Shown: positions 18,585 through 39,000 of the stretch, one piece after another | Position numbering within the stretch: position 1 is the stretch's first letter | How the letters are laid out: each line of letters begins with the position of its first letter | From: an uncultured SAR116 cluster alpha proteobacterium | GTDB taxonomy: Bacteria > Pseudomonadota > Alphaproteobacteria > Puniceispirillales > Marisalimonadaceae | Reading direction: 5' to 3' | DNA length: 40,072 bases | NCBI GenBank assembly: GCA_902578805.1 | Contig: CACHEH010000009.1 | Span: 1 to 40,072 of the forward strand | The notes under the pieces: model-generated | Told to the model about the DNA's origin: nothing | Database searches by the model: none | Seen by the model: the letters and a program-made list of their open reading frames with translations, nothing else | Made by a program: the position numbers and the translations under genes

Positions 18585-18600
18585 AGCAAGAATTATGCCA
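18585..18600 (-). promoter_or_regulatory. sigma-54 promoter for fliO-P-Q-R-flhB
   Basis: On the minus strand the site reads TGGCAT-AATTC-TTGCT, matching the -24/-12 consensus TGGCAC-N5-TTGCW with one change and exact spacing. Transcription would begin near 18574, about 20 bases before the fliO ATG. It lies in the 108-base gap between fliN and fliO, the widest in the cluster, and divides it into two transcription units. Confidence 0.82.
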
Positions 18601-21936: not shown

Positions 21937-21994
21937 ATTTCAAAACTAAATGCAAATACAGTGCCATTATTAAATTATGAAATTTAAAAATATG

Positions 21995-22387
21995 TTATTG
22001 AAAATTTTTGTTTTCTAATTCACTAATAAAATGTTTTTTATAATCTGTAGCTTTTTCTTCAGCCTTAATTTTTTTTAAATTATTTTCAATAATTTTTTTT
22101 CTTATGGTTTCTTTTTCAGCGTGCAAATATTTGTTTCTATTTGATGCAATATTTTTTTGACTTTGTAGAGTTGTTAATAGTTGAGCATTATTTTTAAAAA
22201 ATCCTGAATTAATTATTTTTTTAGAAGAATTATTTTTATTACTCTCCATTATGGTGTTTATTTGCTCTATTAGACTTTCATTTTTAGTAATTTCCTTTTG
22301 GACTAAATTAGAATTATTAATTTCTCTTGAAATATCTTTTTTTCTAATTGTAGCAAGTCGCTGAAATCTTTTAATTTTTTTTTTCAA
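21995..22387 (-). CDS. fliJ: flagellar export chaperone FliJ
   Basis: Coiled-coil protein of the export ATPase complex, linking FliI to FlhA. It has 130 residues, almost wholly helical and charged. The sequence is Lys/Asn-rich and the family is weakly conserved, so the call rests on length, coiled coil, the KRFQRLATIRKK start and position between fliI and fliK. The start is a TTG at 22387 with AGGT upstream, just after the fliI stop. Confidence 0.8.
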   Translation of the reverse strand: MKKKIKRFQRLATIRKKDISREINNSNLVQKEITKNESLIEQINTIMESNKNNSSKKIINSGFFKNNAQLLTTLQSQKNIASNRNKYLHAEKETIRKKIIENNLKKIKAEEKATDYKKHFISELENKNFQ

Positions 22388-22395
22388 ATATCTAC

Positions 22396-23715
22396 CTATT
22401 CATATAGTTTTAATAATGCTATTTTTGAACTTTCAAAACTTGCTTTTTCAGAACTGCTCTGGGATATAAAATCAATTAACTTTGGCCACATATCTATGGC
22501 ATTATCAAGATCTTTATCTTGACCATGTGTATACCCGCCCATTAATAGTAAATCTTTATTTTCTATGTAAGCACTTACATGTTTTCTGAAAAGTTTTGAT
22601 GCGTTCAAGTGATCATTTGTAATTAGATCATCCATAACCCTACTAATCGAATTTGGAATATCGACAGCTGGATAAACACCCATCTGAGCGTTAAATCTGC
22701 TTAATAAAATATGACCATCAAGTATTGCTCTTGCGGTATCAACAACTGGATCATTATTGTCATCTCCATCAGCTAAAATTGTGTAAAATGAAGTAATACT
22801 TCCATCTCCTTGGTCACTCGTTCCTGACCTTTCTATCAGATTAGGTATCATAGAAATTACAGATGGAGGATAACCTTTAGAGGTAGCAGCTTCTCCTAAT
22901 GACAATCCAATTTCTCTTTTAGCATGTGCAATTCTGGTTAAACTGTCCATTATTAATAATACATTTTTACCTTGATCTCTAAAATATTCTGCTATAGCCG
23001 TTGCCCTGTTAGCACCCCTAATTCTCATTAACGGCGATCTATCTGCTGGTACAGCAACAACAGTAATTTTTTGAGCTGCTTCATCTTTAAATAGTTCATT
23101 GACCATTGTTCCGACTTCTCTGGCTCTTTCACCTATTAAAGCAATTACCACAACATCTGCCTCGGTATATTTACTCATCATTCCTAACAACACTGATTTA
23201 CCTACTCCCGAACCAGCAATTATTCCAAGCCTTTGACCCTGCCCTACAGTTAATAAAGAATTTATAATTCTTACACCTACATCTAATGGCTTTGTGATCA
23301 AACTCCTTTTGAGGGGGTTCATAACTTTACCCATAAGAGGCCATTTATTTTTAATTTTTCCTAAGGGTTTTTCATCTAATGGTTTTCCAAAGGCATCAGT
23401 AACCCGTCCCAATAAAGTATTATCTACTTCTATGTATCTTCCATCATCTTGTAATGTAACCTCGCATCCTGAGACTATATGTGAGGAATTTTCTAAAATA
23501 GCTAACATGTTATACTTTTCATTAAAGCGAATAACTTCTGCGAGAATTTCTTTACCCATTTGATCTTTTACAACGCAAAGACTTCCTATGGGAACTGGAA
23601 ACGGATCACAGTAAATTATATTGCCATCAAAATGATTAACTCTTCCAGAACTAAAAATGAATTTAGGTCTTTTTATTTGGGAAATGTTGTCAATTAGTTT
23701 TTTCTCAAAGTTCAT
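22396..23715 (-). CDS. fliI: flagellum-specific ATP synthase FliI
   Basis: Hexameric ATPase that powers or primes flagellar type III export. It has 439 residues, with Walker A AGSGVGKS at 167-174, and further conserved ALIGERAREV, LLIMDSLTRIAHAKREIGL and DGHILLSRFNAQMGVYPAVD. A TTG at 23718 is immediately before the ATG; I used the ATG at 23715, with GGAAG upstream. It lies between fliH and fliJ. Confidence 0.96.
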   Translation of the reverse strand: MNFEKKLIDNISQIKRPKFIFSSGRVNHFDGNIIYCDPFPVPIGSLCVVKDQMGKEILAEVIRFNEKYNMLAILENSSHIVSGCEVTLQDDGRYIEVDNTLLGRVTDAFGKPLDEKPLGKIKNKWPLMGKVMNPLKRSLITKPLDVGVRIINSLLTVGQGQRLGIIAGSGVGKSVLLGMMSKYTEADVVVIALIGERAREVGTMVNELFKDEAAQKITVVAVPADRSPLMRIRGANRATAIAEYFRDQGKNVLLIMDSLTRIAHAKREIGLSLGEAATSKGYPPSVISMIPNLIERSGTSDQGDGSITSFYTILADGDDNNDPVVDTARAILDGHILLSRFNAQMGVYPAVDIPNSISRVMDDLITNDHLNASKLFRKHVSAYIENKDLLLMGGYTHGQDKDLDNAIDMWPKLIDFISQSSSEKASFESSKIALLKLYE

Positions 23716-23733
23716 CAATTACTTCCAGCAGCT

Positions 23734-24765
23734 TTAAGCATTATAATTGCTTTTTTCTGAATAACGCATTCCATCACAATTTAGAATTATGTCACCTCTT
23801 GAGAGTTCTTTGTTAGAAATAAAAAACTTTTTGTCTTCATTTTCATTAAAATTTTTTATTTTTGAAAGTGCTTCAAAATCTTTTTCATTAACTTCAATTG
23901 TGATTTTATCACGATAACAATTTATATTTTTTATAAATGACTTAATTTTCTTTTCATATTTTTCTGGCATTTTATCTATTTGATAACCAGCAAGTTCATA
24001 TGAAATTTCAAGGATTTTATTTTTAAAAATTTCATAGATTGCCTCCTCAGCTAATGATGTTAACGATGTTAAAATATTTTTGAAATCTTCAAAATCTTTA
24101 TTAATTGTTTCTGAAATATTGTTTGTCAATTTACTATTATCTTCAGAACTTTTAGCAGATTCATTATCACTTTTATTTATTGATTGAGAAACAGCATTTC
24201 TAACAGAATTTAAAGCTTGTTGAGTTTCATCGTCAGGCTTGTCTAATTCAGTAAACTTTAATTCATTTTCCCCATTATTTTCACTTATTTCGTTGTTACT
24301 TTCTTCATCATTAAGGATTTCTTCTTTAATCATTTTTTCAGATTGGTCATGTTCTTCATATGCCTTTTCTGTATCTTCATCACTTTTTTCATTATTGGTT
24401 TTATTGTCTAACTGTGAAGTTTCTAAAGAAATATCCTTTACTTTGCTAGCTTCATTATTGTTATCTATCTCTGTTTGTTCTGATTTTTGCCCCTCTTTAA
24501 TTAAGTCATTATTTTCTTCTAAATTTTTAATTTCCTCAGTTGTATTATTATTTACAGCATCTTCCTGAAAATTTTCTTTAGATTTAAAATCAAGAGCGAT
24601 CTCAATTAATGATTTTTTTACAAAATTAGAATTATTAGAAATATTTTTATTTTCAAAACGAGACTCAGATTGCAATTTTAAAATTGATTTTATTTCATCA
24701 CCACTTAAAGGAGCAATTTTTTGCGTATTATGATTATCCTGATCTTGTTTCATTTTTAGTTTCAT
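23734..24765 (-). CDS. fliH: flagellar assembly protein FliH, long acidic N-terminus
   Basis: Regulator of the FliI ATPase at the export gate. It has 343 residues against roughly 220-250 in most FliH proteins. Residues ~60-210 are an extremely Glu/Asn/Ser-rich, probably disordered stretch; residues ~225-343 form the helical and FliH C-terminal region (FKNILTSLTSLAEEAIYEIF, RGDIILNCDGM). The call rests on that region and position between fliG and fliI. The acidic insertion is odd and may be lineage-specific. Confidence 0.85.
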   Translation of the reverse strand: MKLKMKQDQDNHNTQKIAPLSGDEIKSILKLQSESRFENKNISNNSNFVKKSLIEIALDFKSKENFQEDAVNNNTTEEIKNLEENNDLIKEGQKSEQTEIDNNNEASKVKDISLETSQLDNKTNNEKSDEDTEKAYEEHDQSEKMIKEEILNDEESNNEISENNGENELKFTELDKPDDETQQALNSVRNAVSQSINKSDNESAKSSEDNSKLTNNISETINKDFEDFKNILTSLTSLAEEAIYEIFKNKILEISYELAGYQIDKMPEKYEKKIKSFIKNINCYRDKITIEVNEKDFEALSKIKNFNENEDKKFFISNKELSRGDIILNCDGMRYSEKSNYNA

Positions 24766-24776
24766 TTTTAAAAAAA

Positions 24777-25814
24777 TTATACATAATCATCGCCGCCGCG
24801 ACCCGCTAACACTATAGAACCTTCGTCAGACATTCTTCTGGCTACAGCAATGATTTGTTTTTGTGCTTCTTGTACTTCTGTTAATCTAACCGGTCCAAGT
24901 GCTTCCATCTCATCTTGTATATTAGCTGCGGCACGTTGCGACATACATCCAAAAAGTTTTGTCTTCAATTCTTCGTCAGCACCTTTGAGTGCAAGTATTA
25001 TCAAATCATCCTCAACAGCTCTAAGAAGGGTTTGAAGAGACTTATCATCGGATAACAATAATGTTTCAAATACAAACATACTGTCCTGAATATCTTGCAT
25101 TAATTGTTTATCGTCCTTTAAGATTTCCTTCATTATCTTTGCTTCACCGTCTTGGCTTAAGAAATTCATTATTTTAGCTGCTGCTGGTACTCCTCCAACT
25201 TTACTAGCTCTTAAACTAGCATTAGATGAAAAAACTTTTTGCATAACCCTATCTAATTCCTTTAGTGCTTCAGGCTGTACTGTTTCTAAAGTTGCTATCC
25301 TTTTGATTATGTCTGATTGACTTTTTTCAGGCATAAAGGTCAAAACATCTGACGCAGTAGATGGTTCTAAGTAAGAAATAATTAATGCTATAATTTGAGG
25401 ATGTTCTTCAATAATCAAGTCAGCAATTGATCTTGCATCAAGCCAATCAAGTATTTCAATTGCTTTATTACTATCTGATGGTGTAATTTTTCCTAAGACA
25501 GTTTGTGCTTTATCTTCACCTAACGATTTAGTTAATACGTTTTTAATATAGCCTCCGCCAGATATACCTAAACTAGTTTGAGCTTTAATAATTGCTAAAA
25601 ATTCGTCTAAAACTAAATTAACTGTGTCTTGTCCCAAACCTTGAACAGAATACATTGCCGAACCAAGAACTTGAACCTCTTTTGGTGAAAGATTACCCAT
25701 TATTTCTGCAGCTTCATCTTCACCGATTAACATCATCAAGATTGCACATTTTTGTGTTCCTGTTAATCCCTGGTAAACTTCGTCTGCACTCGGTTTTTTT
25801 GCTGCCTCTGCCAT
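24777..25814 (-). CDS. fliG: flagellar motor switch protein FliG
   Basis: C-ring component facing the stator, where torque is generated. It has 345 residues, with the FliG N domain (TGTQKCAILMMLIGEDEAAE), the middle EHPQ motif at 137-140 followed by IIALIISYL, and the C-terminal domain with charged helix (LFGCMSQRAAANIQDEMEAL). Normal length. It is about 20 bases after fliF. Confidence 0.97.
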   Translation of the reverse strand: MAEAAKKPSADEVYQGLTGTQKCAILMMLIGEDEAAEIMGNLSPKEVQVLGSAMYSVQGLGQDTVNLVLDEFLAIIKAQTSLGISGGGYIKNVLTKSLGEDKAQTVLGKITPSDSNKAIEILDWLDARSIADLIIEEHPQIIALIISYLEPSTASDVLTFMPEKSQSDIIKRIATLETVQPEALKELDRVMQKVFSSNASLRASKVGGVPAAAKIMNFLSQDGEAKIMKEILKDDKQLMQDIQDSMFVFETLLLSDDKSLQTLLRAVEDDLIILALKGADEELKTKLFGCMSQRAAANIQDEMEALGPVRLTEVQEAQKQIIAVARRMSDEGSIVLAGRGGDDYV

Positions 25815-25835
25815 TTTAATATCCTACTCTCTCAT

Positions 25836-27548
25836 TTATTCTTTTTCCATCATGTTTTTAAACACACTGGAAACCCGACCTGCTTCATCACCAACAATCA
25901 TTCTAATTACAGCAACTTTGTCATCATAAGTGTTAGCTGTATCAAGCATTTCTGCTGATATAGCGGCCTTCTTTGGTTTTAACTTTGCTTTTATGTCTTC
26001 AAGAGATTCCCCTTCCTGAACTTCAATTTTATCGTCTACGTCATCTTCGTCATCGGATGTCATTACAGCAGCTCCAGACGTATAACCTGCTGGAACTAGA
26101 ACTCTTTTTAGCAAAGGATGCAATGCACCAAATATAACAATTGCAAAAATTAAAACTGTTGCTAATTGTTTAGCCAGTTCTTTTACAGACTCATTTTCAT
26201 ACCATGGAACCTCTACTGCCTCAAGAATATCTACAAAAGGACTACTTGTAACTGTAACGCTATCACCTCTTGCTTCGTCAAAACCAAGAGCTTCTTGAAC
26301 AAGTGATTTTATCTCTAATAGTTTTTCGTCAGTAAATTTTTCATATGTTACAACACCTTCAGCTGTAATTATTTTATTTTCTCGAATTATTACAGCTGCT
26401 TTAATTTTCTTAATCTCTCCATATTGAGCTTTGGTAGTTTCCACTTTTCTACTAACTTCATAATTTTTTACAGATGTTTGACTTCTTTGTTTCAAACTTC
26501 CACCTACGTCTTTTCCTTCTGGAACTTGTGTTTTTAAATCAGGGGCCAAAGGTGGTGCATTTGATAACGCACCTGGGATACCTCTAGCTTCGGGATTTGC
26601 GCTTTCGTCTAATGTACTTTGTTCACTCCTAAGAGCATTACCTTTAGGGTCTACAGACTCTTCTGTAATTTCTCTTTGCGTAAAATTCATATCTACATTT
26701 ATTTCAGCCTTTAAATTACCGGCTCCTACTATAGGTGTTAATAAAGAAATAATTCTAGATTTATATATTTCACCTAATCTCATTGTTTGTGACATTTGTT
26801 CACTAGAAATTGAAGCAGAGACATCATTAGAGGGTTTAGACAAAAGTTCTCCAAATTGATCAACTACTGTTATATTTTCTGATGGAAGATTTGGTACAGA
26901 GGATGCAACAAGATGGACTATTGATTGAACTTGTTGCCTTCCCAGAGTTCTACCATTTGCTAATTTAACAAATACTGATGCTGAAGGAAGAGCAATTTCT
27001 CTTGCAAAAACTGTTTTTTCAGGAATAGCTAGATGTACTCTAGCAGAACTTACTCCAGATATATGATTTATTGAACGTGATAATTCAGCTTCCAAAGACT
27101 GCTTAATTTTTATAGCTTCCACAGACCTGCTGGTTCCCATAGGCATGTCACCCAAGCTATCATATCCATCTGGTACTGAGGATGGTAGACCTTCTCCAGC
27201 TAGTAACATTCTAGATTCATGATAATCTTTTACTGGGACTGTTACTTCTCCAGTGGATGGATTAAGGGATGCATTAACACCATTGGATTTCAATGTCTGT
27301 ATAACTAAAGATTTTTCACTTTCTGGAAGTGTTGCAAATAAAGTTGTCATGTCAGATTTTTGCATTGTAAAAAATACTATTAAACCTACAAAAGCAACAA
27401 TGACTCCAAAAATTAATGGAACTGATTTTTGCACGGCAGGATCAGATGTCATTTTTCTAACATTTGAAATTGAATTAGAAATCCTGCTAATAATACCTGT
27501 ACTTTGGTTTATACCTGTTAGATCATTTCCTGTTGTTGCTTCTGCCAT
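25836..27548 (-). CDS. fliF: flagellar M-ring protein FliF
   Basis: Forms the MS-ring of the basal body in the inner membrane. It has 570 residues: first transmembrane segment at about 42-62, ring-building domains (SVEAIKIKQSLEAELSRSI, SSARVHLAIPE), a variable periplasmic loop, second transmembrane segment at about 455-475 (ATVLIFAIVIFGALHPLLKR), and a cytoplasmic FliG-binding tail near 520-570 ending VSSVFKNMMEKE. Normal length. It lies between fliE and fliG. Confidence 0.96.
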   Translation of the reverse strand: MAEATTGNDLTGINQSTGIISRISNSISNVRKMTSDPAVQKSVPLIFGVIVAFVGLIVFFTMQKSDMTTLFATLPESEKSLVIQTLKSNGVNASLNPSTGEVTVPVKDYHESRMLLAGEGLPSSVPDGYDSLGDMPMGTSRSVEAIKIKQSLEAELSRSINHISGVSSARVHLAIPEKTVFAREIALPSASVFVKLANGRTLGRQQVQSIVHLVASSVPNLPSENITVVDQFGELLSKPSNDVSASISSEQMSQTMRLGEIYKSRIISLLTPIVGAGNLKAEINVDMNFTQREITEESVDPKGNALRSEQSTLDESANPEARGIPGALSNAPPLAPDLKTQVPEGKDVGGSLKQRSQTSVKNYEVSRKVETTKAQYGEIKKIKAAVIIRENKIITAEGVVTYEKFTDEKLLEIKSLVQEALGFDEARGDSVTVTSSPFVDILEAVEVPWYENESVKELAKQLATVLIFAIVIFGALHPLLKRVLVPAGYTSGAAVMTSDDEDDVDDKIEVQEGESLEDIKAKLKPKKAAISAEMLDTANTYDDKVAVIRMIVGDEAGRVSSVFKNMMEKE

Positions 27549-27570: not shown

Positions 27571-27882
27571 TTAAACGGGCATATTCATTATATCTTTATA
27601 TGAACTCAAAACTTTATTTCTAACATTTAAAGTCATTTGAAATGCAATATTAGAAATTTGTTGTTGCATAATAACTTTTGTAAGGTCAGTTTCTTTTCCA
27701 AGTTCATATTCTTTAGTAATTTTTGAAGCCTTATTCTGACTCTCAGCTACAGAGTTTAAAGCGTCATTTATTTTTTTTGAAAATTCTTCGGGTTTTTTAT
27801 TTTCTGAAAACGCCTCATTTGCTTTTTCCAAAATATTTTGTCTTAGAACATTTGTACTTATATTTTGATTTGAAATCTTCAT
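27571..27882 (-). CDS. fliE: flagellar hook-basal body protein FliE
   Basis: Rod-base protein joining the MS-ring to the rod. It has 103 residues, and ends with the characteristic KVIMQQQISNIAFQMTLNVRNKVLSSYKDIMNMPV-type region (DLTKVIMQQQISNIAFQ, YKDIMNMPV). It lies 15 bases after the flbD-like gene and 22 before fliF. Normal length and order. Confidence 0.95.
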   Translation of the reverse strand: MKISNQNISTNVLRQNILEKANEAFSENKKPEEFSKKINDALNSVAESQNKASKITKEYELGKETDLTKVIMQQQISNIAFQMTLNVRNKVLSSYKDIMNMPV

Positions 27883-27897
27883 TAACTATTTTTCCCT

Positions 27898-29094
27898 TTA
27901 AGTTACTTTCGCGAAAGCCAATTGATCTGCAAATGAATCTACTGATGAATTTTCATTAATTTTTGACAATGATTTATCAATCATGATTGATTTCTCATTA
28001 ATGATGTTTTGATTACATAATACAAGAGCTCTCTGAAGAGTGTTTTCGAGTTCTCTTACATTCCCTGGCCAATTATGATTTAATAATAATTCTCTTGCCT
28101 TACTGGTTAAATAAGGCGCAGATTTATTTTCATGATTATGTTTATCTAAAATTTTGATTGCAATTGGTAAAATATCATCTTTTCTAGAAGATAAATTACG
28201 AGTTTGAAGTGGAAACACATTAAGCCTATAATATAGATCCTCTCTAAATCTTGATTGGTTAACTTCATTAGCCATATCTCTATTTGATGTCGCTAAAACC
28301 CTTACATCAACGTCAATATCTCTCTGTCCACCAACAGGGGTTACTTTTCTTTCCTGCAAAACTCTCAGTAATTTTGCTTGCAAAGATAGAGGCATTTCAG
28401 AAATTTCGTCTAATAGTAATGTTCCCTTGTCAGCTGCACGGAAAATACCTTTGTTTGCATTTGATGCTCCAGTAAAAGCTCCCTTTTCGTGACCAAAAAG
28501 AATAGCCTCTAACATATTTTCTGGTATAGCAGCACAATTAACAGCAACAAATGGTTCATCTTTCCTTTTAGAATTTTCATGCAAATAATTTGCAAGCACT
28601 TCTTTACCTGATCCTGTTGGACCATTTATAAATACTGTTACATCAGTGCTTGCAACCTTTCTTGCTAATGACAATAAATCATAAGTTTTTGCGTCACCTG
28701 CTGAAAATGATACATTTGGACAGCAAGCATTAAATATTAATTCTAGAGAATATTGATCTTTATAGTCTGCAACATTAATTCTTTTTACAGCACCACCTAG
28801 CTCATCTTTAATTTCTATACCATCGCTATTGCAGTCACTAGTAATAATGATAATTTTTGTCAGTTTGGCCTGTCTTGCAATTGAAATTAATTTTGATGAA
28901 CCCCCAATTTCTTTCTCAAAAACATCTGAACAAACTATAGTTTCCGCTTGGTAACCAACAAGATCAATACCAAAAAAATCAGGTTTTGAACTACCAATAC
29001 CCGCCTTTATAACAGTAATGTCTCTATTTTCAAAGATATCACATAGATTGTTCGCAATCTTTAAACTATTATTAACTACAATAACTTGGCTCAT
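27898..29094 (-). CDS. flbD: FlbD-like sigma-54 activator lacking a DNA-binding domain
   Basis: AAA+ activator of sigma-54 RNA polymerase. It has 398 residues: an N-terminal receiver-like domain (1-~130) without an obvious phospho-acceptor motif, then the AAA+ domain with Walker A GPTGSGKE (158-165), GAFTGA (205-210) and Walker B LLLDE (226-230). It resembles Caulobacter FlbD. It ends ~30 residues after the AAA+ domain, and fliE begins 15 bases later, so the Fis-type helix-turn-helix is truly absent rather than frameshifted away. Helicobacter FlgR is a known activator without it. A sigma-54 promoter and an AGGAG precede it; it is the first gene of the fliE-N unit. Confidence 0.85.
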   Translation of the reverse strand: MSQVIVVNNSLKIANNLCDIFENRDITVIKAGIGSSKPDFFGIDLVGYQAETIVCSDVFEKEIGGSSKLISIARQAKLTKIIIITSDCNSDGIEIKDELGGAVKRINVADYKDQYSLELIFNACCPNVSFSAGDAKTYDLLSLARKVASTDVTVFINGPTGSGKEVLANYLHENSKRKDEPFVAVNCAAIPENMLEAILFGHEKGAFTGASNANKGIFRAADKGTLLLDEISEMPLSLQAKLLRVLQERKVTPVGGQRDIDVDVRVLATSNRDMANEVNQSRFREDLYYRLNVFPLQTRNLSSRKDDILPIAIKILDKHNHENKSAPYLTSKARELLLNHNWPGNVRELENTLQRALVLCNQNIINEKSIMIDKSLSKINENSSVDSFADQLAFAKVT

Positions 29095-29126
29095 AAAACA
29101 CTCCTAAAATTATCAGAAATGTTAAA

Positions 29127-29142
29127 AGCAAGAAGCTTGCCA
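29127..29142 (-). promoter_or_regulatory. sigma-54 promoter for flbD-like/fliE-N operon
   Basis: On the minus strand the site reads TGGCAA-GCTTC-TTGCT, matching TGGCAC-N5-TTGCW with one change and exact spacing. Transcription would start near 29116, about 20 bases before the flbD-like ATG at 29094. Candidate activator boxes lie 85-145 bases upstream, the usual enhancer range. Confidence 0.85.
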
Positions 29143-29201
29143 AACTACAAATTGAAAGAAGCTTATTGGCATTTTTAATTAAAACATAGCAATTTTTTAT
29201 T

Positions 29202-29207
29202 TATAAT
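29202..29207 (+). promoter_or_regulatory. candidate -10 box for the FleQ-like gene
   Basis: A perfect TATAAT at 29202-29207 with TTAAAA 17 bases upstream (29179-29184) could start a transcript near 29214. A rival pair, TTGATT at 29209 with TATTAT at 29233, overlaps FleQ-like box 1. AT-rich DNA makes these weak calls. Confidence 0.35.
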
Positions 29208-29227
29208 ATTGATTTATTGGTAAAAAA

Positions 29228-29241
29228 GTCATTATTATGAC
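29228..29241 (+). promoter_or_regulatory. FleQ-box-like palindrome 1
   Basis: GTCA-TTATTA-TGAC has both exact arms and the spacer length of the Pseudomonas FleQ box GTCA-N6-TGAC. It lies 40 bases upstream of the FleQ-like start codon and about 100 upstream of the divergent sigma-54 promoter. It could serve in both autoregulation and enhancer function. Confidence 0.55.
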
Positions 29242-29257
29242 AAATGTTATAAATTTT

Positions 29258-29271
29258 TTCAATTATTTGAC
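29258..29271 (+). promoter_or_regulatory. FleQ-box-like palindrome 2
   Basis: TTCA-ATTATT-TGAC has one mismatch in the arms of GTCA-N6-TGAC. It starts exactly 30 bases after box 1, about three helical turns, placing both on one DNA face. It lies in the 5' leader of the FleQ-like gene, ending just before its ribosome-binding region. Confidence 0.5.
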
Positions 29272-29280
29272 GGATTTTAA

Positions 29281-30423
29281 ATGAATGTTGTCGATAAATT
29301 AACAACCCCATCTAAACAAAATAAGTCTATATTAGACAAACTTAATGAATTGATTGATGGCGAAAGTCCTGAAACTAAATCAATGAAGAACTTAATTGCA
29401 ATGGTATCTCAAACAGATAGTACTGCATTAATTTTAGGTGAAACTGGAACTGGTAAAGATATTGTTGCTCAAGCTATTCACAAGTGTTCAAACAAAAAAG
29501 GACCCTTCATAACAGTAAATTGTGCTGCAATTCCGTCTGAATTACTAGAGTCAGAACTTTTTGGACATGAAAAAGGTTCATTTACTGGTGCAGATAAACA
29601 AAGAAAAGGGAGGTTTGAACAATCTAGTGGCGGGTCTCTTTTTCTTGACGAAATTGGTGATATGCCCTTACCACTTCAAGCCAAACTATTAAGAGCTATT
29701 GAAAGTAAGACCATACAGAGAGTTGGTGGTTCACAAGACATTAAAATAGATTTAAGGTTGATTTGCGCAACACACAGAGATCTTGAAAAAAAAGTTGAAA
29801 ATGGCGAATTCAGAGCAGATTTGTTTTTTAGAATAAATGTTCTGCCAATAAATGTGCCTTCACTAGCTGAGAGAAGAACTGACATACCAAGTCTGCAAAA
29901 AACTCTATTAACACTTCTAAAAGTGGATGACTCCATGAAACCAATCTTTACACCAGATGCTATAACAGCACTTTGTAAACATAATTGGCCAGGCAATGTT
30001 CGTGAGTTAAAAAATGTAATTGAAAGAGCTTGCATAATCTTTCCAGGAAAAGAAATTACAAGCACTAATGTTTACGAAAATTTACTAAGATTGAAAGTCC
30101 CAACAGTTGCCGAAGAGCAAGAAGCACTATGGGAAATGACATCAGATTTAAGTGGAATAGATAACCTTGAAGAAAATGAGCTCAAAAATAATCTTGAAGA
30201 TTACTTACCGCATCCTAAAAATTATAAAAATTGGTTTTCTTTTTATGATGAAATAGACTTAAGAAGACATCTTCAAGATGTTGAAATTGTTCTAATAGAA
30301 GAGGCCCTTGAAAAAACAAACAATAAGGTAGCTCTTGCAGCAGATAAGCTAAAGCTTAGAAGAACTACCTTAATTGAAAAAATGAAAAAATATTCAATAA
30401 ATGTAAATCAAAATATTAATTAA
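29281..30423 (+). CDS. FleQ-like sigma-54 activator without N-terminal domain
   Basis: AAA+ enhancer-binding protein of 380 residues. The N-terminal regulatory domain of FleQ/FlrA is absent: Walker A GETGTGKD is already at 53-60. The sigma-54 contact loop reads GSFTGA (99-104) instead of GAFTGA; Walker B is SLFLDE near 120. The C-terminal Fis-type helix-turn-helix (~335-378) includes RRTTLIEKMKKYSI, close to that of Pseudomonas FleQ. It is divergent from the flbD-like gene, across two FleQ-box-like palindromes. CGGA precedes the ATG at 29281. Its end overlaps the convergent 664-aa flagellin by eight bases. Confidence 0.85.
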   Translation: MNVVDKLTTPSKQNKSILDKLNELIDGESPETKSMKNLIAMVSQTDSTALILGETGTGKDIVAQAIHKCSNKKGPFITVNCAAIPSELLESELFGHEKGSFTGADKQRKGRFEQSSGGSLFLDEIGDMPLPLQAKLLRAIESKTIQRVGGSQDIKIDLRLICATHRDLEKKVENGEFRADLFFRINVLPINVPSLAERRTDIPSLQKTLLTLLKVDDSMKPIFTPDAITALCKHNWPGNVRELKNVIERACIIFPGKEITSTNVYENLLRLKVPTVAEEQEALWEMTSDLSGIDNLEENELKNNLEDYLPHPKNYKNWFSFYDEIDLRRHLQDVEIVLIEEALEKTNNKVALAADKLKLRRTTLIEKMKKYSINVNQNIN

Positions 30424-32410
30424 TTAATCTTAAAAAAACTTCACCACTCGCGTTAGCTTGAGCAAGCATAGAAGAGGCTGCTTTAGACATAATTTGAGCT
30501 TTTGTTAGCCTAGCTGTTTCTAGAGCAAAATCAGCATCTTCTATTTTAGATAATCTTGAGGAAGAATTATTCTTTACGTCAAGAAGATAACTTAATCTAT
30601 GATCAATTGCATTTTCACTAGCACCAAATTTTGCTCTTGTGTTTGATATTGTATCAATTGCAGTATCGATATTAGTAAGAGCATTTGTAGCATTAGAAGA
30701 ACTAGATACAGAGATTATGGATCCTGGAGCTGACGCGCTACTTGAAGCCTGAGCTTGAAATCCTAGCTCTCCTACATCATCTCCAGAAATTTTGATTACA
30801 TCACCAGCGTCATGAGTTAATAATATTTGTCCCTTAAATGTAACAGAACTGTTCACAGAAATAGTGGCTCCTGTTGCATCAGTATGACCGTCAAAAAAAA
30901 CACCCGGTGTACCATTATGGGAAATTACAATATCAGCACCACTTGCACTGGCAAGTTGAACTTCTCCACTTGAGTTAGCTGAGGCAACAATATCCCCTAT
31001 TGACGCATTATTAATTGCAGTAATGGTTTCAGTTTCATTAGTAACACTTCCAAAATTAATTGTATTTCCATTAATACTTATATTTGAAGCAGCTGTTGAG
31101 GCTTCTGAAAAATTCAAATCTAGTGTTACTAAATTATCCCCAGAAGCGGTTACATTAGTTGATGAAGAAACTGCATTAATAGCAATAGCTTTAGCAGCTG
31201 CAGACGCGCTGTCGGACGCTCCAATTTCAATGTCATTAATTTTAATATCATGAGATGCCGTAAGTGCATTTGTTGATACTAAGTCAGATCTAATAATTGT
31301 GCTTGAATCAACTTCATTAAATCCAAATCTTGCCAAATCATCAATATTTCCACTATTAGACGCATATCCATTAGCTTTTGTCATGGCTTCAATTTTCACA
31401 AATGTACCGTCAACATTTTCTAATTTTATATATCCTAAATAAGTGCCCGCAGTAAAGCCAGCATCAGTTGGTGCATTTCCTCCAATAACTATATCATTAC
31501 CAGTAGTATTTGATAATGTAATTGTGTTATCAGAATTGAGTGTTGCTATTACACCCCCAGCTTGCTCATTAATTCCATCTACTAAGTTTGCAAGACTCGT
31601 TTGTGTGGAGATTATATTTGTATTAATTGTAAAAGTATCACTCATACTCAAAGAATTCTTTGCAGCTGATGTTACTTTATTAAAACCAGTAGCTGTTGCG
31701 CCATGAGAATTTGAATTTGCATTAATAGCTGTCACAAGTGCCGCTGCAGTATTATTTCCTGATGATAAGTTATCAGTTAAGTTTGCTGCTAAAGCGTTTT
31801 GTGAGTTAATTTTGATATCACTTGCTGCAAGATTACTACTATTGTAAGTAAATCCCGTTACTCGTCCACTGGTAAACTCTTTTACTCCAGATGATCCAGA
31901 CAAACCTAAACCTGTACTATCAGATTTAACAAGATCGATAGAAACTATATCATCCTTAGTTTCTCCAACTAAAAAACTTACCTTATCTTTAGTTCCATCT
32001 AACAATTTGATAGTATTAAATTTTATTAATTTAGTTAAAGCATCTATTTCTGTTAAGTAGGAATCTATTTCAACCTGTAGTGTGTTTCTATCAGCTGTTG
32101 TTAAAGTTGAACTGCCTCCTTGGACAGCCAATTCTCTTATTCTAGCAAGTATGTTATTTATTGAACTAAGACCACTATCAGCAGTTTGAGTAAGTATTTT
32201 TCCCTCAGCACCATTCGAAATTGCTTCACCTAAGGATAAAACTTGAGCATTTAACCTTGAAATAGGGCCTAAAGATGCTGGATCATCAGATGCACGATTA
32301 ATTCTTTTACCAGAAGATAACCTTTCTGTACTTTCAGTCATCTCCTTTATTTGATTAGTCATATTTCTTTGAATAAATTGAGACGTAGTCAAATTACCAA
32401 TATTAAGCAT
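30416..32410 (-). CDS. flagellin, 664 aa
   Basis: Filament subunit exported by the flagellar type III system. N-terminal D0/D1 (1-~140) has MTESTERLSSGKRINRASDD and IRELAVQGG; the C-terminal D1/D0 (~575-664) has SKIEDADFALETARLTKAQI. The central region (~180-545) includes flagellin IN-type units (NNITLSNTTGNDIVIGG-like) homologous to the 1010-aa flagellin. The extreme C-terminus, GEVFLRLIN, departs from the usual VLQLLQ/LLALLQ ending, suggesting a minor or specialised subunit. GGAGG precedes the ATG. No sigma-54 site was found upstream. Confidence 0.93.
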   Translation of the reverse strand: MLNIGNLTTSQFIQRNMTNQIKEMTESTERLSSGKRINRASDDPASLGPISRLNAQVLSLGEAISNGAEGKILTQTADSGLSSINNILARIRELAVQGGSSTLTTADRNTLQVEIDSYLTEIDALTKLIKFNTIKLLDGTKDKVSFLVGETKDDIVSIDLVKSDSTGLGLSGSSGVKEFTSGRVTGFTYNSSNLAASDIKINSQNALAANLTDNLSSGNNTAAALVTAINANSNSHGATATGFNKVTSAAKNSLSMSDTFTINTNIISTQTSLANLVDGINEQAGGVIATLNSDNTITLSNTTGNDIVIGGNAPTDAGFTAGTYLGYIKLENVDGTFVKIEAMTKANGYASNSGNIDDLARFGFNEVDSSTIIRSDLVSTNALTASHDIKINDIEIGASDSASAAAKAIAINAVSSSTNVTASGDNLVTLDLNFSEASTAASNISINGNTINFGSVTNETETITAINNASIGDIVASANSSGEVQLASASGADIVISHNGTPGVFFDGHTDATGATISVNSSVTFKGQILLTHDAGDVIKISGDDVGELGFQAQASSSASAPGSIISVSSSSNATNALTNIDTAIDTISNTRAKFGASENAIDHRLSYLLDVKNNSSSRLSKIEDADFALETARLTKAQIMSKAASSMLAQANASGEVFLRLIN

Positions 32411-32506: not shown

Positions 32507-32803
32507 TTATTTCTTGCTCATGGAATATGCTTTTAGTCTTTTACTAAATTGACTTTGATTTTTGGATAAGTTTTCTAATTTTTTTTCTGTAGCTTTTATA
32601 TTTTCAAGATTATTTTCAATAAGCTTACCTATTCTTTTTTTAATCTGATTTTTCTTAATTTGTCTATCTTTAATCTTTTCTATTAGTAATCTTCTTTTTG
32701 TATCAAGAAGTGAAATTTGAGAAAATTCGTTATTATATATTAAATCAGAAATTTTTTTGGATAGATTTTCTAGCATTTCTAAGTCAGTGTTTAGAGTATC
32801 CAT
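32507..32803 (-). CDS. fliT: FliT-like small coiled-coil protein
   Basis: A 98-residue charged helical protein, two bases after fliS. FliT, the export chaperone for the filament cap, normally follows fliS (fliD-fliS-fliT) and has this size and helical character, but the sequence match is too weak to prove it. A longer GTG start at 32836 overlaps fliS; I chose the ATG at 32803 with AGAG upstream. It could equally be an unrelated flagellar protein. Confidence 0.55.
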   Translation of the reverse strand: MDTLNTDLEMLENLSKKISDLIYNNEFSQISLLDTKRRLLIEKIKDRQIKKNQIKKRIGKLIENNLENIKATEKKLENLSKNQSQFSKRLKAYSMSKK

Positions 32804-32805
32804 TT

Positions 32806-33243
32806 TTATTTCTCTAAAGATGGTATTTCTTCCCACCCTTCCATGATTTGTTTAACAACATCAATAGCTTTTAAAATTCCATCTTCAATTTTTTGACTGA
32901 ACCCTCTAATTATTTCGTAACGGCAATATTCGTATAACTGGAAAAGATTATTAGCAATTTCTAAAGCTTTATCAAAATCTAAGCTAGTTTGAAGACCATA
33001 AATTATGGATAGTGATTTACTAAGATTTTTAGCTTTATGGCGAACATTTTTTTCTTCAAAAGCTTTATCGACTAGATACTGATTTTGTTTTCTTTTTCTT
33101 TCATCTTGAATGTCTAAGACAATTTTTTGCATTGAATTGACCAACTCTTTCATCAATGCTCTAACTATTTCATGTGAAGATGTAACAGCATTGGAAGATT
33201 GTTGCGTCTTTTTATATGCATTTAATTGTTCGTTATTTACCAT
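32806..33243 (-). CDS. fliS: flagellar export chaperone FliS
   Basis: Cytoplasmic chaperone that binds the flagellin C-terminus and prevents early polymerisation. It has 145 residues: NAYKKTQQSS start, SKSLSIIYGLQTSLDFDKAL, EIANNLFQLYEYCRYEI and the ending VKQIMEGWEEIP are typical FliS. No good Shine-Dalgarno precedes the ATG. It sits among the flagellin genes, as expected. FliD, which usually precedes it, is absent here. Confidence 0.92.
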   Translation of the reverse strand: MVNNEQLNAYKKTQQSSNAVTSSHEIVRALMKELVNSMQKIVLDIQDERKRKQNQYLVDKAFEEKNVRHKAKNLSKSLSIIYGLQTSLDFDKALEIANNLFQLYEYCRYEIIRGFSQKIEDGILKAIDVVKQIMEGWEEIPSLEK

Positions 33244-33317: not shown

Positions 33318-33674
33318 ATGATTGTTAATAATTTACAAAACCCATATGCTATAAATGAGATTAATGCTTCTAAACCGCTTAGGAATGAAAGCTCTAGTTT
33401 ATCTGCAAACAGTATGCCAACTAGTGATAGAATAGTTTCTGAAACTAGTGTTACAAAAAGACCTTTAAATAACACCCCTCCTAATTTCGTTAGGCATGTT
33501 TATGTAAACACTCAGACAGTTAGTAATGGATCATTAACTGAGAGCTTTATAAGATCAAGAGCTTCTCTATCTCCATCATATTTTTATAATGAGATTGTTA
33601 CTCGTTATAATATGATCAGTGCGATTCCCAAAGATTTAACTCATTTAAAAAAATCAGTTGAAAAATACGCGTAA
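33318..33674 (+). CDS. unknown 118-aa protein upstream of the plus-strand flagellin
   Basis: No family recognised. The first ~70 residues are Asn/Ser/Pro-rich and likely flexible (SLSANSMPTSDRIVSE); the last ~40 look structured (PSYFYNEIVTRYNMI). There is no Shine-Dalgarno before the ATG at 33318, so it may be leaderless or start elsewhere. It is divergent from fliS and directly precedes the sigma-54 promoter of the 754-aa flagellin. The composition looks coding. Confidence 0.55.
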   Translation: MIVNNLQNPYAINEINASKPLRNESSSLSANSMPTSDRIVSETSVTKRPLNNTPPNFVRHVYVNTQTVSNGSLTESFIRSRASLSPSYFYNEIVTRYNMISAIPKDLTHLKKSVEKYA

Positions 33675-33693: not shown

Positions 33694-33709
33694 TGGCATA
33701 ACAATTGCA
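33694..33709 (+). promoter_or_regulatory. sigma-54 promoter of the 754-aa flagellin
   Basis: The site reads TGGCAT-AACAA-TTGCA, matching TGGCAC-N5-TTGCW with one change and exact spacing. Transcription would start near 33720, giving a ~24-base leader to the ATG at 33743. This rules out the upstream ATG at 33710 as the start codon, as it would precede the transcript. Confidence 0.87.
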
Positions 33710-33742: not shown

Positions 33743-36007
33743 ATGCCAACAGTAAATTCCAATACTGCAGCTCAGTTTGCATTAAATAAAATGAATGCAA
33801 CAGAGCGTGAAATGACAACGGCAATGGAACGTTTATCGTCTGGAAAACGAATAAATCATGCAGGTGATGACGCAGCTGGCGCAGCAATTGCTGACAGAAT
33901 GACTGCACAAATAAAAGGTTTATATCAATCAGTACGAAATGCAGCTGATGTTATTTCAATGGCACAAGTTACTGAAGGTGCCTTAGACGAATCTTCTTCA
34001 ATAATTCAAAGAATAAGAGAATTAGCAATTCAATCAGCATCAGATGTTATGAACGCAGAAGAACGTTCTTATTTGGACGCAGAAGTTGTTCAAATGTTAG
34101 CAGAATTAGATCGCGTAACTAGAGATACTACTTTTAATGAAATAGCAGTTTTAGACGGGTCATTTGCAGATAGACGTTTTCAAATTGGAACACATGAACG
34201 TGAATTCGCCCAATTATCAATATCATCAATGAGATTAGACAGCTTAGGAGCGTACAAGGCTAAATCTCAAGGAACAGAGACAACTGATGACGCTGGTGGC
34301 CCAGTTGACAATGATAATTTAGCATTGAATGCTTATGCTGTTGCTGATACCTCAGAAACCAATCTGGTACAGGCTGAATCTTTTACTATTCACGGTATTT
34401 TAGGGAGTTCGTCTGTTACAGCTGCAGAAGGATCAACTGTTAGAGATATAGCTACTTCTGTTAATGCAGTTTTTGACTCTACAGGTGTTACAGCTATAGC
34501 TTCTACTCAACTTAAAATTCAGGCAAAAACTTTAGATGCTCTTTTTAATGGTCAAACAAGTGTTTCATTCAGCATTCAAGGCAAAAACACTACAGCAACT
34601 ACAATAGCTGCAAACGTTACATTAAGTAACAATGAAGGAAGTTCAGTACTTTCAGAACTAAGAGATTCAATTAATAATTATACAACAACCACTGGGGTTA
34701 CAGCTACACTTTCAACAGATAAATCATCAATCATAATGGTACAGAATGAAGGTTATGACATAAAACTAGGAGACGTTAATTTTGCTGGCGATACTAGTAC
34801 TGACGGGGCTCAAAGAACTTTGTTAGTAACAAGCTTAGATAATGACGAAGTTGTGGCTGGAGACGCAGTATCTTTAGGTGACACAAATGTAACAACAACA
34901 GATCAAGATGGTATATTTTCAGGTGACACTGGTGGCAGTATAACTATTGGAAAATTAACAACAGGAAATGGTACGGGTGGTACAGCTTTCACATCAACAG
35001 GTCCTCGCAAACATGCAACAAGCGCTACTTTAGTGGTTGCACAACAACAAATTAGACAAACTCAGGAAGGTATTAATGGTACTGCGTCCATGACTATTGC
35101 TAACTCCGCTACCATTCTTAATTCTTTTATAACAATTACCTCAGATGCTGCAACAACAACTACTGGCCAACCTGATACAACTTTTAAGATAGTTGGAACT
35201 GATGTACATGGTAATGCTCAAGAAGAAACAATTCCAGTATTTAGCGGTGCTGCAACTCAAACATCTACTAAAGTATTTGGTACAGTTACATCTGTAGTAC
35301 CCTCAAGAGAACACGCAACTGCTAAAGTTAATGTAGGAGTTTTGCAAACAATCGCTAAGCAAGCAGCACTTGTTACCGTTACAAGCTCAACTGGTGACGA
35401 AAGTGATAAAACAATTACAGTAACTGGTGTTGGAATGGACGGTACATCACTATCTGAAGTAATAACTGGACCAGCAGTAGGTAAAACAGTTACAGGCAGA
35501 AGAATTTTTACAGAAATACACACAGTTGTGGTATCTGGTGATACAGCTGCGTCAATTGATATTGGATTAAAAGCAGCAGATTCTGTAATTATTACTGGAC
35601 AACTTGAAATGTCCTCTAGTAACAGTTTTACAGTTGTTGGCGAAGATGGAAAAGGTTTATTTGAAGCATCACCCGGTGCGGCATCATTAGATAAATTATC
35701 TGGCGTGAATGTTAAGACAAGACAATCATCAATAGATGCCTTACGTGTTTTAGACAGATCCCTTGATAGAATTCATAAAGAAAGAGCAAAACTTGGAGCT
35801 CTAATGAGTAGAATGGAAAAAGCAATTGATAACTTATCAAATGTTGCTTTAAACACAGATGCTTCGAGAGGAAGAATAGAAGACGCTGATTTTGCAAAAG
35901 AGTCAGCCAGATTAACAAAAGCACAAATTTTACAACAATCTGCAATGGCCATGATAGCTCAAGCAGGAAAAGCACAACAAAATGTGCTTCAATTATTACA
36001 AAATTAA
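33743..36007 (+). CDS. flagellin, 754 aa, with two phage-like repeats
   Basis: Filament subunit. N-terminal D0/D1 has MPTVNSNTAAQFALNK and RLSSGKRINHAGDDAAG; the C-terminal part has RIEDADFAKESARLTKAQI and ends NVLQLLQN. The start at 33743 follows GGAG by six bases and lies downstream of a sigma-54 promoter; the longer frame from 33710 is excluded. Standard flagellins are 270-500 residues; the excess is a central domain including two units (about residues 446-534 and 535-609) with the pattern GTDxxGxxxxE. It is richer in G and C than its neighbours. It is probably a major filament protein. Confidence 0.95.
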   Translation: MPTVNSNTAAQFALNKMNATEREMTTAMERLSSGKRINHAGDDAAGAAIADRMTAQIKGLYQSVRNAADVISMAQVTEGALDESSSIIQRIRELAIQSASDVMNAEERSYLDAEVVQMLAELDRVTRDTTFNEIAVLDGSFADRRFQIGTHEREFAQLSISSMRLDSLGAYKAKSQGTETTDDAGGPVDNDNLALNAYAVADTSETNLVQAESFTIHGILGSSSVTAAEGSTVRDIATSVNAVFDSTGVTAIASTQLKIQAKTLDALFNGQTSVSFSIQGKNTTATTIAANVTLSNNEGSSVLSELRDSINNYTTTTGVTATLSTDKSSIIMVQNEGYDIKLGDVNFAGDTSTDGAQRTLLVTSLDNDEVVAGDAVSLGDTNVTTTDQDGIFSGDTGGSITIGKLTTGNGTGGTAFTSTGPRKHATSATLVVAQQQIRQTQEGINGTASMTIANSATILNSFITITSDAATTTTGQPDTTFKIVGTDVHGNAQEETIPVFSGAATQTSTKVFGTVTSVVPSREHATAKVNVGVLQTIAKQAALVTVTSSTGDESDKTITVTGVGMDGTSLSEVITGPAVGKTVTGRRIFTEIHTVVVSGDTAASIDIGLKAADSVIITGQLEMSSSNSFTVVGEDGKGLFEASPGAASLDKLSGVNVKTRQSSIDALRVLDRSLDRIHKERAKLGALMSRMEKAIDNLSNVALNTDASRGRIEDADFAKESARLTKAQILQQSAMAMIAQAGKAQQNVLQLLQN
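35078..35569 (+). repeat. two GTD-G-E type repeat units in the 754-aa flagellin
   Basis: Unit A (35078-35344) contains FKIVGTDVHGNAQEETI and KVFGTVTSV; unit B (35345-35569) contains ITVTGVGMDGTSLSEVITGP and RRIFTEIHTV. Both follow the scheme: beta-rich lead, GTD/G-x-G, TE-I, aromatic-TV-x-I/V, ending V/I-x-I/V-G. The repeats are divergent at DNA level. Confidence 0.7.
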
Positions 36008-36074: not shown

Positions 36075-39000
36075 TTATCCTTGAAGAAGAGCTAGTAAGT
36101 TTTGCTTAGATGCGTTTGCCTGAGCTAACATTGATGTTGCAGCTTGTGACAAAATCTGAGCTTTCGTTAGATTAGATGTCTCCTGAGCAAAATCAGCATC
36201 CTGAATTCTAGATTGAGCAGCTTCTGTATTAACTTTCAAAGTTGTTAAGTTACTTATAGAAGCATCAATTCTATTTTCAATGGCACCAAAAGATGATCTA
36301 AACTTAGATACTTGTTCTATTGCTTTATCGATCAATTCTAGGGAAGCATTTGCTCCAGCCATAGTCTCAACTGACACTTTTGTACCAGAAACTTCAAACT
36401 CTGCACTTTGACCCTGAATACCTAACTTTTGAAGAATGGTTTCAGTTGAGCCAAATGTACCGTCAACACCAGTCCTCATATTTGTATTCGAGTCTGCAGC
36501 AACAGTTTCAACTTTTATTGGGGTACCTGTTGAGTTAGAAAGTTCTAATTTACCACGAGAAGTAAAATCATCTCCTATACTTGCAGTATATCCAATTTTA
36601 ACAGCGTTTGATGTAAAATCAACATCAAGGTCAATTCTTGATACGGTTGCAAAAGCTTTAGTACCAGTAGAAGTACCACTCTGAGCAGGACCAACTATTA
36701 CTTCGGTTAAACTATTACCAAGCATGTCAGTACCATGAACAGTGATTGTACCATTGGCTGCTGTAGCATTGTTTCCTTCAGTTATTGTAATCAATGCACC
36801 ACCAAGATTTAAACTTGTAGCACCGGAAACTAATGTCAATGCAGTAGCAGCACCATGGTCACCAGAAGCGACTAATCCATCATCATCTGCTACCTTATTA
36901 CCATGATTGGCTGCGTTAGTTCCACCAGCATTAGTGTTACCAATTGTACTTGCATTGGTATCAGCTTGTGAGGCAGTTATAGAAGTAACAGACTCGTACA
37001 CATTTTTACTTAAAGCTTCAAGTGTACCACCAGCTCCTCTTACAACCTCAGTAACTGTATTACCAAAAACATCTGTACCTGTTATAGTATAGTTTTGGTC
37101 AGCTTGACCAGTTATTGAACCAATGTCAAAAGTAAGTGTAGAAGTTTGATCAGCTACGATTTCAGTGACAGTATTAAAAGTTTTAATACCATCAACAGTA
37201 CCATTTTGTGTTGCACCAGCAATAACCTCAGTTTGGACGTTTCCATCCATATCTGTACCAGTAATAGTAAAGTTTATACCAGATGCATCACCGTTATTTA
37301 GTTCTGTAATCCTGACCATTCTACCTTTTGGTGTTGCGCTTGTAGCTGTTGAAGTTAATGTCATTGCAGATGTAGAAGCTGTCTGACCATCAGACAATTC
37401 ATCAGTATCTGTTACCGCACCAGCAGAAGTAAAAACAACTTGGCTATTAAAGTTTGATGGGCTCAACAATGTCAAGCTTGTATCTGTGATTGCAGCACTT
37501 GCACGTAGTGAATCAACGTCTTCATCACTACCTCCAATAATACCACTAACACTTACTGTTCCATTAACATCTTTAAATGCCCTTATGAAATCAGTATCAC
37601 CCTGATGAGTTACTCTAATGTCCACACCAGATGCACTTGATAATGTAACAGCACCATCAGAATTAGCTTTAGCTCTTATGTCACCTACTGATGCATTATT
37701 GATTGCAGTAACAACACCTTCAATGCCATTAGCAGATGTTACATTAATTGAAGTACTATTAACAAAAAATTCAGTTGTACCACCAGGCATTGCACCAAAA
37801 TTTAAAGCTAGCTGAACTTCGTTACTTGCTTTAGCAGTTACGCCTGACTCAGTAGATACTGCATTAATAGCTTCAGCTATAGAAGAAGCTTGACCTGTAG
37901 CTGAGGCTCCAATTAATACATCGTTAATTTTGATCTCATTAGCAGATAGAGCTGTACCACTTACAGTATCAGTTTCTAATATTGAACCAGATGAGGTTTC
38001 ATTAAAACCTAGAGCATTAACATCACCAATAGTACCTAGACCATCAGTATATCCGTTGACTTCACTTCCTGCTTCAATTCTAACAGCGGAACCATCTAAG
38101 TTTTTAAGACTTACAAAACCTGTATATGTTCCTGCTGTGAAACCAACATCTGAGGCAGCTGAACCTGCAATAACAATAGCTTCACCAGTTTTATTTGACA
38201 ATGTTATTGTATTATCAGCATTTAATGCAGCGTTTATACCAGACACAGCTTCGTTAATGTTGGCTGTCAATTTTGAATATGATGTGGCAAGAGCGACAGT
38301 GTCACCATTAATTGTAAAAGTAGCAGATTGTGAAAAAGTACCTTTAGCAGTTGATTGAACAGAATTAAAAGCGTCTGCTTCTGCACCATGTATACCAGTA
38401 TTAGCGTTTATTGCATCTGCTAATAACTTAGCTTCATTAGCTCCAGAAGCTGAAGTGTCCTGATTAAAGTCAGTTGCAAAAGCATTAAACCCATTTATCT
38501 TTACATCGGCAGCTGCAATAGTATTAGCAGTGTTACTAAAATCTTTTTCATCAATTCTTTCACTTGTTAATGTAGTAACACCAATAGCACCACTTAACCC
38601 TAATGAAATTGAATCAGAACTTTCTAAATCTACTTTCAATGTATCAGAGGCATTAATACCGATTTGGAATTTAACATCTACATTACTACCATCTAGTAAT
38701 TTAACATTATTAAAATGAGTGTTTGCAGATATTTTATCAATTTCTTCAATGAGTTGATCAACTTCAGATTGTATCATGCTTCTGTCAGAGTCACTTAAAG
38801 TGCTGTTTCCAGCTTGAACTGAAAGTTCTCTTACTCTCTGCAACATATTTTCAACTTCACCCAAAGCGCCTTCAGCTGTTTGTGTCATTGAAATTGCATC
38901 ATATGAGTTTCTGATTGCGACACCAAGACTTTTAACTTGGGATTCCATTTTAGAAGCGATGGCTGAACCAGCAGCATCGTCAGCGGCAGAATTGATTCTG

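Follow-up and report, generated by a model that had tools for sequence, protein, structure and literature searches.

Introduction

The closest described counterpart of the gene pair analyzed here is the Fla1 FleQ/FleT system of Cereibacter sphaeroides. According to the relevant passages of papers on FleQ/FleT and on FleQ motifs (PMC7277832, PMC9542535, PMC11999139, PMC3162934, PMC8125075, and PMC11655674), FleQ together with RpoN2 activates an operon comprising fleT and fliEFGHIJ, FleT has no DNA-binding domain and forms hetero-oligomers with FleQ, class III promoters are recognized by FleQ/FleT, and there is a switch from class II to class III. The same passages state that FleT alone activates no flagellar promoters, that FleT controls FleQ by changing its affinity for its binding sites, and that C. 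sphaeroides has four rpoN genes, unlike other species. Where these open papers treat FleQ/FleT, they do so for C. sphaeroides only and count it among the few cases in which activators form mixed rings, and we found no report in the open-access literature of FleQ/FleT in the SAR116 cluster or of its spread. Here, we analyzed a stretch of 40,072 nucleotides (referred to as the window) from an uncultured SAR116 cluster alphaproteobacterium (the whole of contig CACHEH010000009.1) in which two adjacent and divergent genes, fleT and fleQ, encode sigma-54 activators that lack complementary domains. Our analyses indicate that the product of these genes is very probably a hetero-oligomeric sigma-54 activator of the FleQ/FleT type that acts in a flagellar hierarchy, with the hetero-oligomer step inferred from the C. 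sphaeroides pair.

The AAA+ domains of the window pair are also homologous to those of the Pseudomonas FleQ-FleS-FleR and Vibrio FlrA-FlrBC systems, the latter compared via solved AAA+ domains only. The Pseudomonas genes fleQ and fleR are located just ahead of fliEFGH, which is the same gene place as that of the window pair. Unlike the window proteins, P. aeruginosa FleQ retains its N-terminal domain and FleR retains both a receiver domain and a helix-turn-helix (HTH) domain; moreover, the kinase gene fleS lies between fleQ and fleR, while there are no genes between fleQ and fleT in the window. HrpR and HrpS of Pseudomonas syringae, each of which has a DNA-binding domain, serve another regulon and are likened to the window pair by description only. 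In the passage that mentions them beside FleQ/FleT, they are a pair of activators that depend on each other and have no N-terminal regulatory domain. Helicobacter FlgR and Chlamydia CtcC are, again by description, sigma-54 activators without a DNA-binding domain, as is FleT; the source passage names no FleQ-type partner for either.

Domain composition of FleT and FleQ

fleT (27898..29094, minus strand) encodes a 398-amino-acid HTH-less activator with an N-terminal domain (residues ~1 to 125) and an AAA+ domain (residues ~130 to 375), and fleQ (29281..30423, plus strand) encodes a 380-amino-acid short FleQ with an AAA+ and an HTH_8 domain but without an N-terminal domain. These assignments are based on Pfam, sequence identity, a phylogenetic tree, and AlphaFold2 models (mean predicted local distance difference test score of 83 for each protein). 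In Pfam searches, FleT matched Sigma54_activat (E value of 4e-68) and an AAA+ lid and, at E values up to 1, matched neither an HTH nor the Response_reg family. No HTH-like frame follows the fleT stop codon, as judged by eye in all frames, and fliE starts 15 nt past this stop codon, which argues against a hidden frameshift. FleQ matched Sigma54_activat (7e-69), HTH_8 (1.8e-10), and a lid; because its AAA+ match begins at residue 27, there is no space for an N-terminal regulatory domain. The first-pass annotation of this stretch, which was made from the sequence alone, is correct in all these respects, including coordinates, strands, lengths, and the loop sequences GAFTGA in FleT and GSFTGA in FleQ.

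The same architecture is conserved in related proteins. Among 73 aligned FleT sequences (window counted), none had a Pfam match to an HTH (E value up to 0.01) or to a receiver (E value of 0.01), and the single match to a viral endonuclease family (1/73; E value of 0.008) was taken as chance. Likewise, HTH_8 was present in 53 of 53 FleQ sequences (window counted), with zero N-terminal families among the matches. The HTH-less FleT sequences have a mean column identity of 47% with invariant ATPase residues. Specifically, the Walker A pattern was found in 73/73 FleT and 53/53 FleQ sequences, the Walker B pattern in 71/73 and 49/53, and the arginine-finger pattern in 72/73 and 53/53.

All 73 FleT loops read GAFTGA or GSFTGA, and the Ser variant was found in 10 of 72 FleT and 21 of 52 FleQ sequences. 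In 51 complete pairs, the FleT/FleQ loop combinations were Ala/Ser (20 pairs), Ala/Ala (24 pairs), Ser/Ala (6 pairs), and Ser/Ser (1 pair); in a locus from the same genus as the window (L025), FleQ has GAFTGA. Because the loop residue varies across pairs and inside the genus of the window, it defines no subunit roles. Consequently, the earlier suggestion that GSFTGA marks the DNA-anchoring subunit and GAFTGA the one contacting sigma-54 is not supported: both proteins carry GAFTGA in 24 of the 51 pairs, and the arrangement is reversed in 6.

The N-terminal domain of FleT had been described as receiver-like. The predicted fold agrees with this description, since residues 3 to 124 of the AlphaFold2 model show a receiver-like order of strands and helices (with poor prediction at residues ~31 to 50), while the lack of a Pfam receiver match in the 73 sequences does not. 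Whole-length alignments with LuxO and with FleQ of P. aeruginosa extend over this domain. With positions assigned manually, the presumed phospho-acceptor of the window protein is D57; Asp is present at this position in 11 of 73 FleT sequences, and the usual acidic pair of receivers is not conserved across them. FleT therefore lacks what characterizes phosphorylation-controlled response regulators such as FleR, FlbD, and NtrC, i.e., a receiver with a conserved phospho-acceptor Asp. The proposal in the first-pass annotation that this subunit receives signals likewise finds no support. The domain is probably a degenerate receiver that serves something other than phosphorylation.

We also considered whether FleT is FlbD, as the label "FlbD-like" in the first-pass annotation implied. 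The FlbD model was the best of the NCBIfam library on FleT, yet it scored 303.5 bits versus a cut-off of 750; the solved structure nearest by sequence is FlrC, and among the named references of the tree, which did not extend to Caulobacter FlbD, P. aeruginosa FleR lies closest. The label is therefore imprecise.

Phylogeny and comparison with Cereibacter

A maximum-likelihood tree was built from the AAA+ domains of 77 hand-picked sequences; six FleQ loci (L155, L160, L161, L163, L164, and L165) and six full-length ones dropped out because they failed the pattern used to select sequences, and Caulobacter FlbD was not part of it. All 31 HTH-less FleT sequences, including those from the window and from a putative Cereibacter genome (G416), fell on one side of a branch (support of 92/86), and all 26 short FleQ sequences fell on one side of another branch (89/65). 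P. aeruginosa FleR is placed just outside a group of FleT and six longer proteins (L138, L141, L144, L043, L044, and L046). These sister proteins, three of which are from Sphingomonadales records, have an HTH_8 domain and no receiver match. In their six genomes, we recognized no FleQ ortholog: the best FleQ matches were longer frames of 469 to 588 amino acids, and weaker, short AAA+-HTH proteins (346 to 372 amino acids; 39 to 41% identity where the match reached the HTH) were taken for PspF-like proteins. The HTH-bearing sister proteins are possibly a one-protein version of the switch, and the simplest reading is that FleT lost its HTH once and that this loss was coupled to reliance on a short FleQ.

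The window pair and the C. sphaeroides pair, which share the combination of a short, HTH-bearing FleQ and an HTH-less FleT, appear to be orthologous: in comparison with the pair in G416, identity was 53% over 333 amino acids for FleT and 49% over 355 amino acids for FleQ. G416 has four rpoN copies, while each of the other genomes among the 28 searched has at most three. Its fleT (L219:1547-2683, with the start taken inside a longest frame of 494 amino acids) is followed by fliE and fliF and preceded by a promoter-like site, as in the window. The short fleQ of G416 (L220) is located ~20 kb from fleT with rpoN in between, whereas fleQ in the window is divergent from and adjoins fleT. In the cited passages, C. 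sphaeroides FleT is described as lacking both domains, whereas the G416 gene can be read with an N-terminal stretch like that of the window protein.

Conservation of the gene pair

The first-pass annotation had called for a search for co-occurrence of the two truncated forms in related genomes, and we found both together, mostly in divergent orientation, in the order of the window and beyond. We kept 80 named loci of 496 confirmed ones. Of these, 72 contain a complete HTH-less FleT, 3 have a tail of HTH length, 4 are cut at a contig end, and in 1 (L139) FleT was not recognized by the pattern. In all 51 named loci where both genes are complete, fleT and fleQ are divergent, separated by gaps of 50 to 303 nt. 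The nearest named loci are SAR116 cluster records in which FleT is 85 to 92% identical to the window protein. Among the 21 of 72 loci without a complete adjoining fleQ, fleQ is cut at the contig end in two (L094 and L112), and the other 19 were searched as genomes; this search gave a FleQ-like match in 15 (in two pieces in G362), a contig-edge fragment in 2 (G363 and G365), and none in 2 (G348 and G364).

Of 61 genomes from the order, 38 hold a short FleQ ortholog. In 36 of the 38, a FleT-type gene adjoins it on the same contig but on the opposite strand, and the other two (G024 and G025) have fleQ at a contig end. In a class-wide sample, 7 of 289 genomes had a clear FleT-type match (E value of ≤3e-101; next, 6e-86), a count that may be low because at most six candidates were scored per genome. 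These seven are G000, G042, and five genomes outside the order, and a divergent short fleQ was present in the fetched flank of four of the five FleT loci outside the order (L037 to L040). In the family that includes the Gemmobacter record, 26 of 394 genomes had a FleT ortholog (E value of ≤3.7e-102; next, 2.5e-72), which may also be an underestimate with at most four candidates scored per genome; 23 of the 26 had a FleQ match that reached the HTH (stop-to-stop frames of 352 to 475 amino acids). In these class-wide and Gemmobacter-family samples, the pair is scattered, while it is common in the order of the window.

rpoN, which encodes sigma-54, was detected in 47 of the 61 genomes of the order. 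Within one family of this order, seven genomes (G037, G040, G049, G052, G056, G058, and G060) have a second, diverged rpoN (~119 to 150 bits versus ~210 bits), and three others (G043, G046, and G054) have only the diverged rpoN and no short FleQ. Separately, the Thalassovita autumnalis record (L110/L221; G348) has FleT without a short FleQ and without a PF04552 rpoN match in the genome; this could stem from gaps in the assembly or be a true exception.

Putative regulatory elements between fleT and fleQ

Using a consensus scan and an alignment of 12 intergenic regions, we identified a -24/-12-like sigma-54 promoter, TGGCAAGCTTCTTGCT, at 29127..29142 on the minus strand and directed at fleT. Such a site toward fleT was present in 39 of 53 loci versus 0.22 expected from shuffled sequence, and the consensus scan detected none toward fleQ in the 53 loci. 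Approximately 100 bp upstream of the fleT promoter, the FleQ-box-like dyad GTC-N8-GAC, GTCATTATTATGAC, at 29228..29241 (no strand assigned) is a putative enhancer and the sole exact match in the window. An exact dyad was present between the genes in 28 of 53 intergenic regions versus 0.33 expected; expectations are based on single-base shuffles for the -24/-12-like site and first-order shuffles for the dyad. This dyad agrees with the FleQ motifs printed in the cited passages, GTCaNTAAAtTGAC and GTCAaAAAAtTGAC, in both its half-sites and its spacing. A second, imperfect FleQ-box-like element with one mismatch (29258..29271; no strand assigned) adjoins the fleQ start and recurs in 9 of the 12 regions in the alignment, window counted. 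With a conserved promoter-like site and a FleQ-like box, fleT is a candidate for FleQ-activated, sigma-54-dependent expression.

Model for FleT and FleQ function

We suggest the following model. The promoter that drives short fleQ would have no -24/-12-like site. Short FleQ would bind the FleQ-box-like dyads of the intergenic region and, acting with sigma-54 RNA polymerase, turn on fleT-fliEFGHIJ. FleT, a FleR/FlrC-type ATPase with no HTH and no conserved phospho-acceptor, would then join FleQ in mixed AAA+ rings, in which FleQ would carry the ring to DNA and FleT would alter promoter choice in favor of later flagellar genes. FleT may also damp its own promoter, as it reportedly did in a 2005 study of C. 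sphaeroides.

The argument for a FleQ/FleT-type activator joins our observations on domain content and orthology, and on the conservation of divergent orientation, gene order, promoter, and box, with the work of others in C. sphaeroides, where, in the passages cited, the hetero-oligomer, the lack of a DNA-binding domain in FleT, and the switch from class II to class III are documented. By analogy, the same hetero-oligomer and class switch are expected in the bacterium of the window. The mixed oligomer that the first-pass annotation proposed is thus probably right, as the orthologous C. sphaeroides pair has published hetero-oligomers; it is not, however, a new way to run a flagellar cascade, because that arrangement has already been published as FleQ/FleT.

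Several observations weigh against this interpretation. At the threshold used, no -24/-12-like site was detected in 14 of the 53 intergenic regions. Among the 39 loci with a site, 6 have it positioned over the initial codons of fleT as predicted, and those starts are probably annotated too early. The 53 loci include near relatives, and the site and dyad counts are consequently not independent events. The exact dyad occurs only at fleT, with none within 200 bp of the remaining -24/-12-like sites in the window; this distribution would fit, on thin evidence, FleQ acting alone at fleT and FleQ/FleT acting at weaker sites. FleT was found without a recognizable FleQ in G348, G364, G395, G588, G755, and G031, and no FleQ was found within the fetched flank of FleT-bearing G164 (L042); some of these exceptions are draft or contig-end cases, and G031 is 66% complete. 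We did not find rpoN in the 70%-complete genome of the window, most likely because of this incompleteness, and rpoN is present in each of the 15 relatives that carry the pair and have a completeness of at least 90%. Support for the FleT and FleQ groups in the tree is moderate and comes with a long-branch warning, which concerns Q_L107, P. aeruginosa FleQ, and the join to the outgroup. Finally, the assignment of G416 to Cereibacter is itself an inference.

Among the alternatives, the one that survives best, and that we consider unlikely, is that FleT is an inhibitor or co-factor that poisons or retunes FleQ homo-rings and takes no part in sigma-54 contact. The lack of a DNA-binding domain in FleT would suit such a role, as would the change in FleQ affinity for its sites that one paper, in the passage cited, ascribes to FleT. 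The lowered transcription from the fleT promoter that the 2005 study reportedly found would also agree with inhibition. A pure inhibitor has no need, however, for the Walker A motif, loop, Walker B motif, and arginine finger that FleT has kept, and the recognition of class III promoters by FleQ/FleT in C. sphaeroides argues for a part in activation.

It is considerably less probable that the two proteins act separately on different promoters, FleT from solution and FleQ in the manner of PspF. Chlamydia CtcC and Helicobacter FlgR are, in the cited passage, HTH-less activators on record, and the few genomes with FleT and no visible FleQ would agree with separate action; against it stand the frequent pairing and divergence of the genes, the lack of a recognized FleQ ortholog where the FleT sister retains its HTH, and the passage stating that C. 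sphaeroides FleT alone activates no flagellar promoters. That one gene is a decaying copy, the case named in the first-pass annotation as refuting its proposal, could be suspected from the missing HTH and conserved phospho-acceptor of FleT but has next to no probability given the HTH-less form shared by 73 aligned sequences (mean identity per column of 47%, with ATPase residues invariant) and its position on one side of a tree branch.

Returning to a FleQ/FleT-type activator, we tentatively raise the broader possibility that the split activator, rather than being peculiar to Rhodobacter, is the standard sigma-54 switch for a single type of flagellum that recurs across records titled as SAR116, PS1-clade, Rhodobacterales, and Rhizobiales. 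This switch might have arisen from a FleQ-FleS-FleR cascade that lost the kinase, the FleQ N-terminal domain, and, once, the FleR HTH, so that two tiers became one mixed ring; the receiver-like remnant of FleT would then perhaps be an assembly-checkpoint or partner-docking module. The pair offers a route, open to testing, by which a two-tier cascade could have become a hetero-oligomer and, as it is kept in many SAR116 genomes and in scattered alphaproteobacteria, a natural data set on the co-evolution of two AAA+ activators in one ring.

Flagellar genes in the window

fleT heads a gene series, fliEFGHIJ, in which all genes are on the same strand. fliE (27571..27882, minus strand; Pfam FliE, 5e-23) probably forms an operon with fleT, and the open reading frames (ORFs) for fliF, fliG, and fliH-like, fliI-like, and fliJ-like genes (21995..27548, minus strand) are presumed to be the remainder of this operon. 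fliG is supported by a match to solved FliG, while fliF and the fliH-like, fliI-like, and fliJ-like genes were named from sequence reading and gene order.

The window contains nine -24/-12-like sites versus 0.83 expected. In addition to that of fleT, one site (33694-33709) precedes the flagellin gene at 33743 on the plus strand, ~33 nt from its likely start, whereas C. sphaeroides fliC is, in the passage cited, under sigma-28 control. Other sites lie just before a fliK-like gene (21951-21966) and just before a gene ending at 18123 (18585-18600); another is upstream of fliS and within another ORF, and the remaining sites are intragenic.

The source genome assembly comprises 1.49 Mb and is 70% complete. 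Elsewhere in this genome, PF00158 gave three matches of 22 to 29 bits (cut-off of 20.2) in 786- and 859-amino-acid frames, which we took for other AAA+ proteins. As these matches are weak and in long frames, fleT and fleQ encode the only clear sigma-54 activators in the assembled part, and together they are likely the master switch of motility for this genome.

Two small ORFs in the flagellar block (33318-33674, plus strand, and 32507-32836, minus strand) matched no Pfam family above the cut-off. Three large flagellins of 664, 754, and 1,010 amino acids, whose Flagellin_N and Flagellin_C ends flank long middle regions, are encoded at 30416-32410 (minus strand), 33743-36007 (plus strand), and 36075-39107 (minus strand), respectively. 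Beside them, at 39192-40070 on the minus strand and truncated by the contig end, lies the C-terminal part of a Glyco_transf_41 (O-GlcNAc-transferase-like) protein, which is possibly a flagellin glycosyltransferase.

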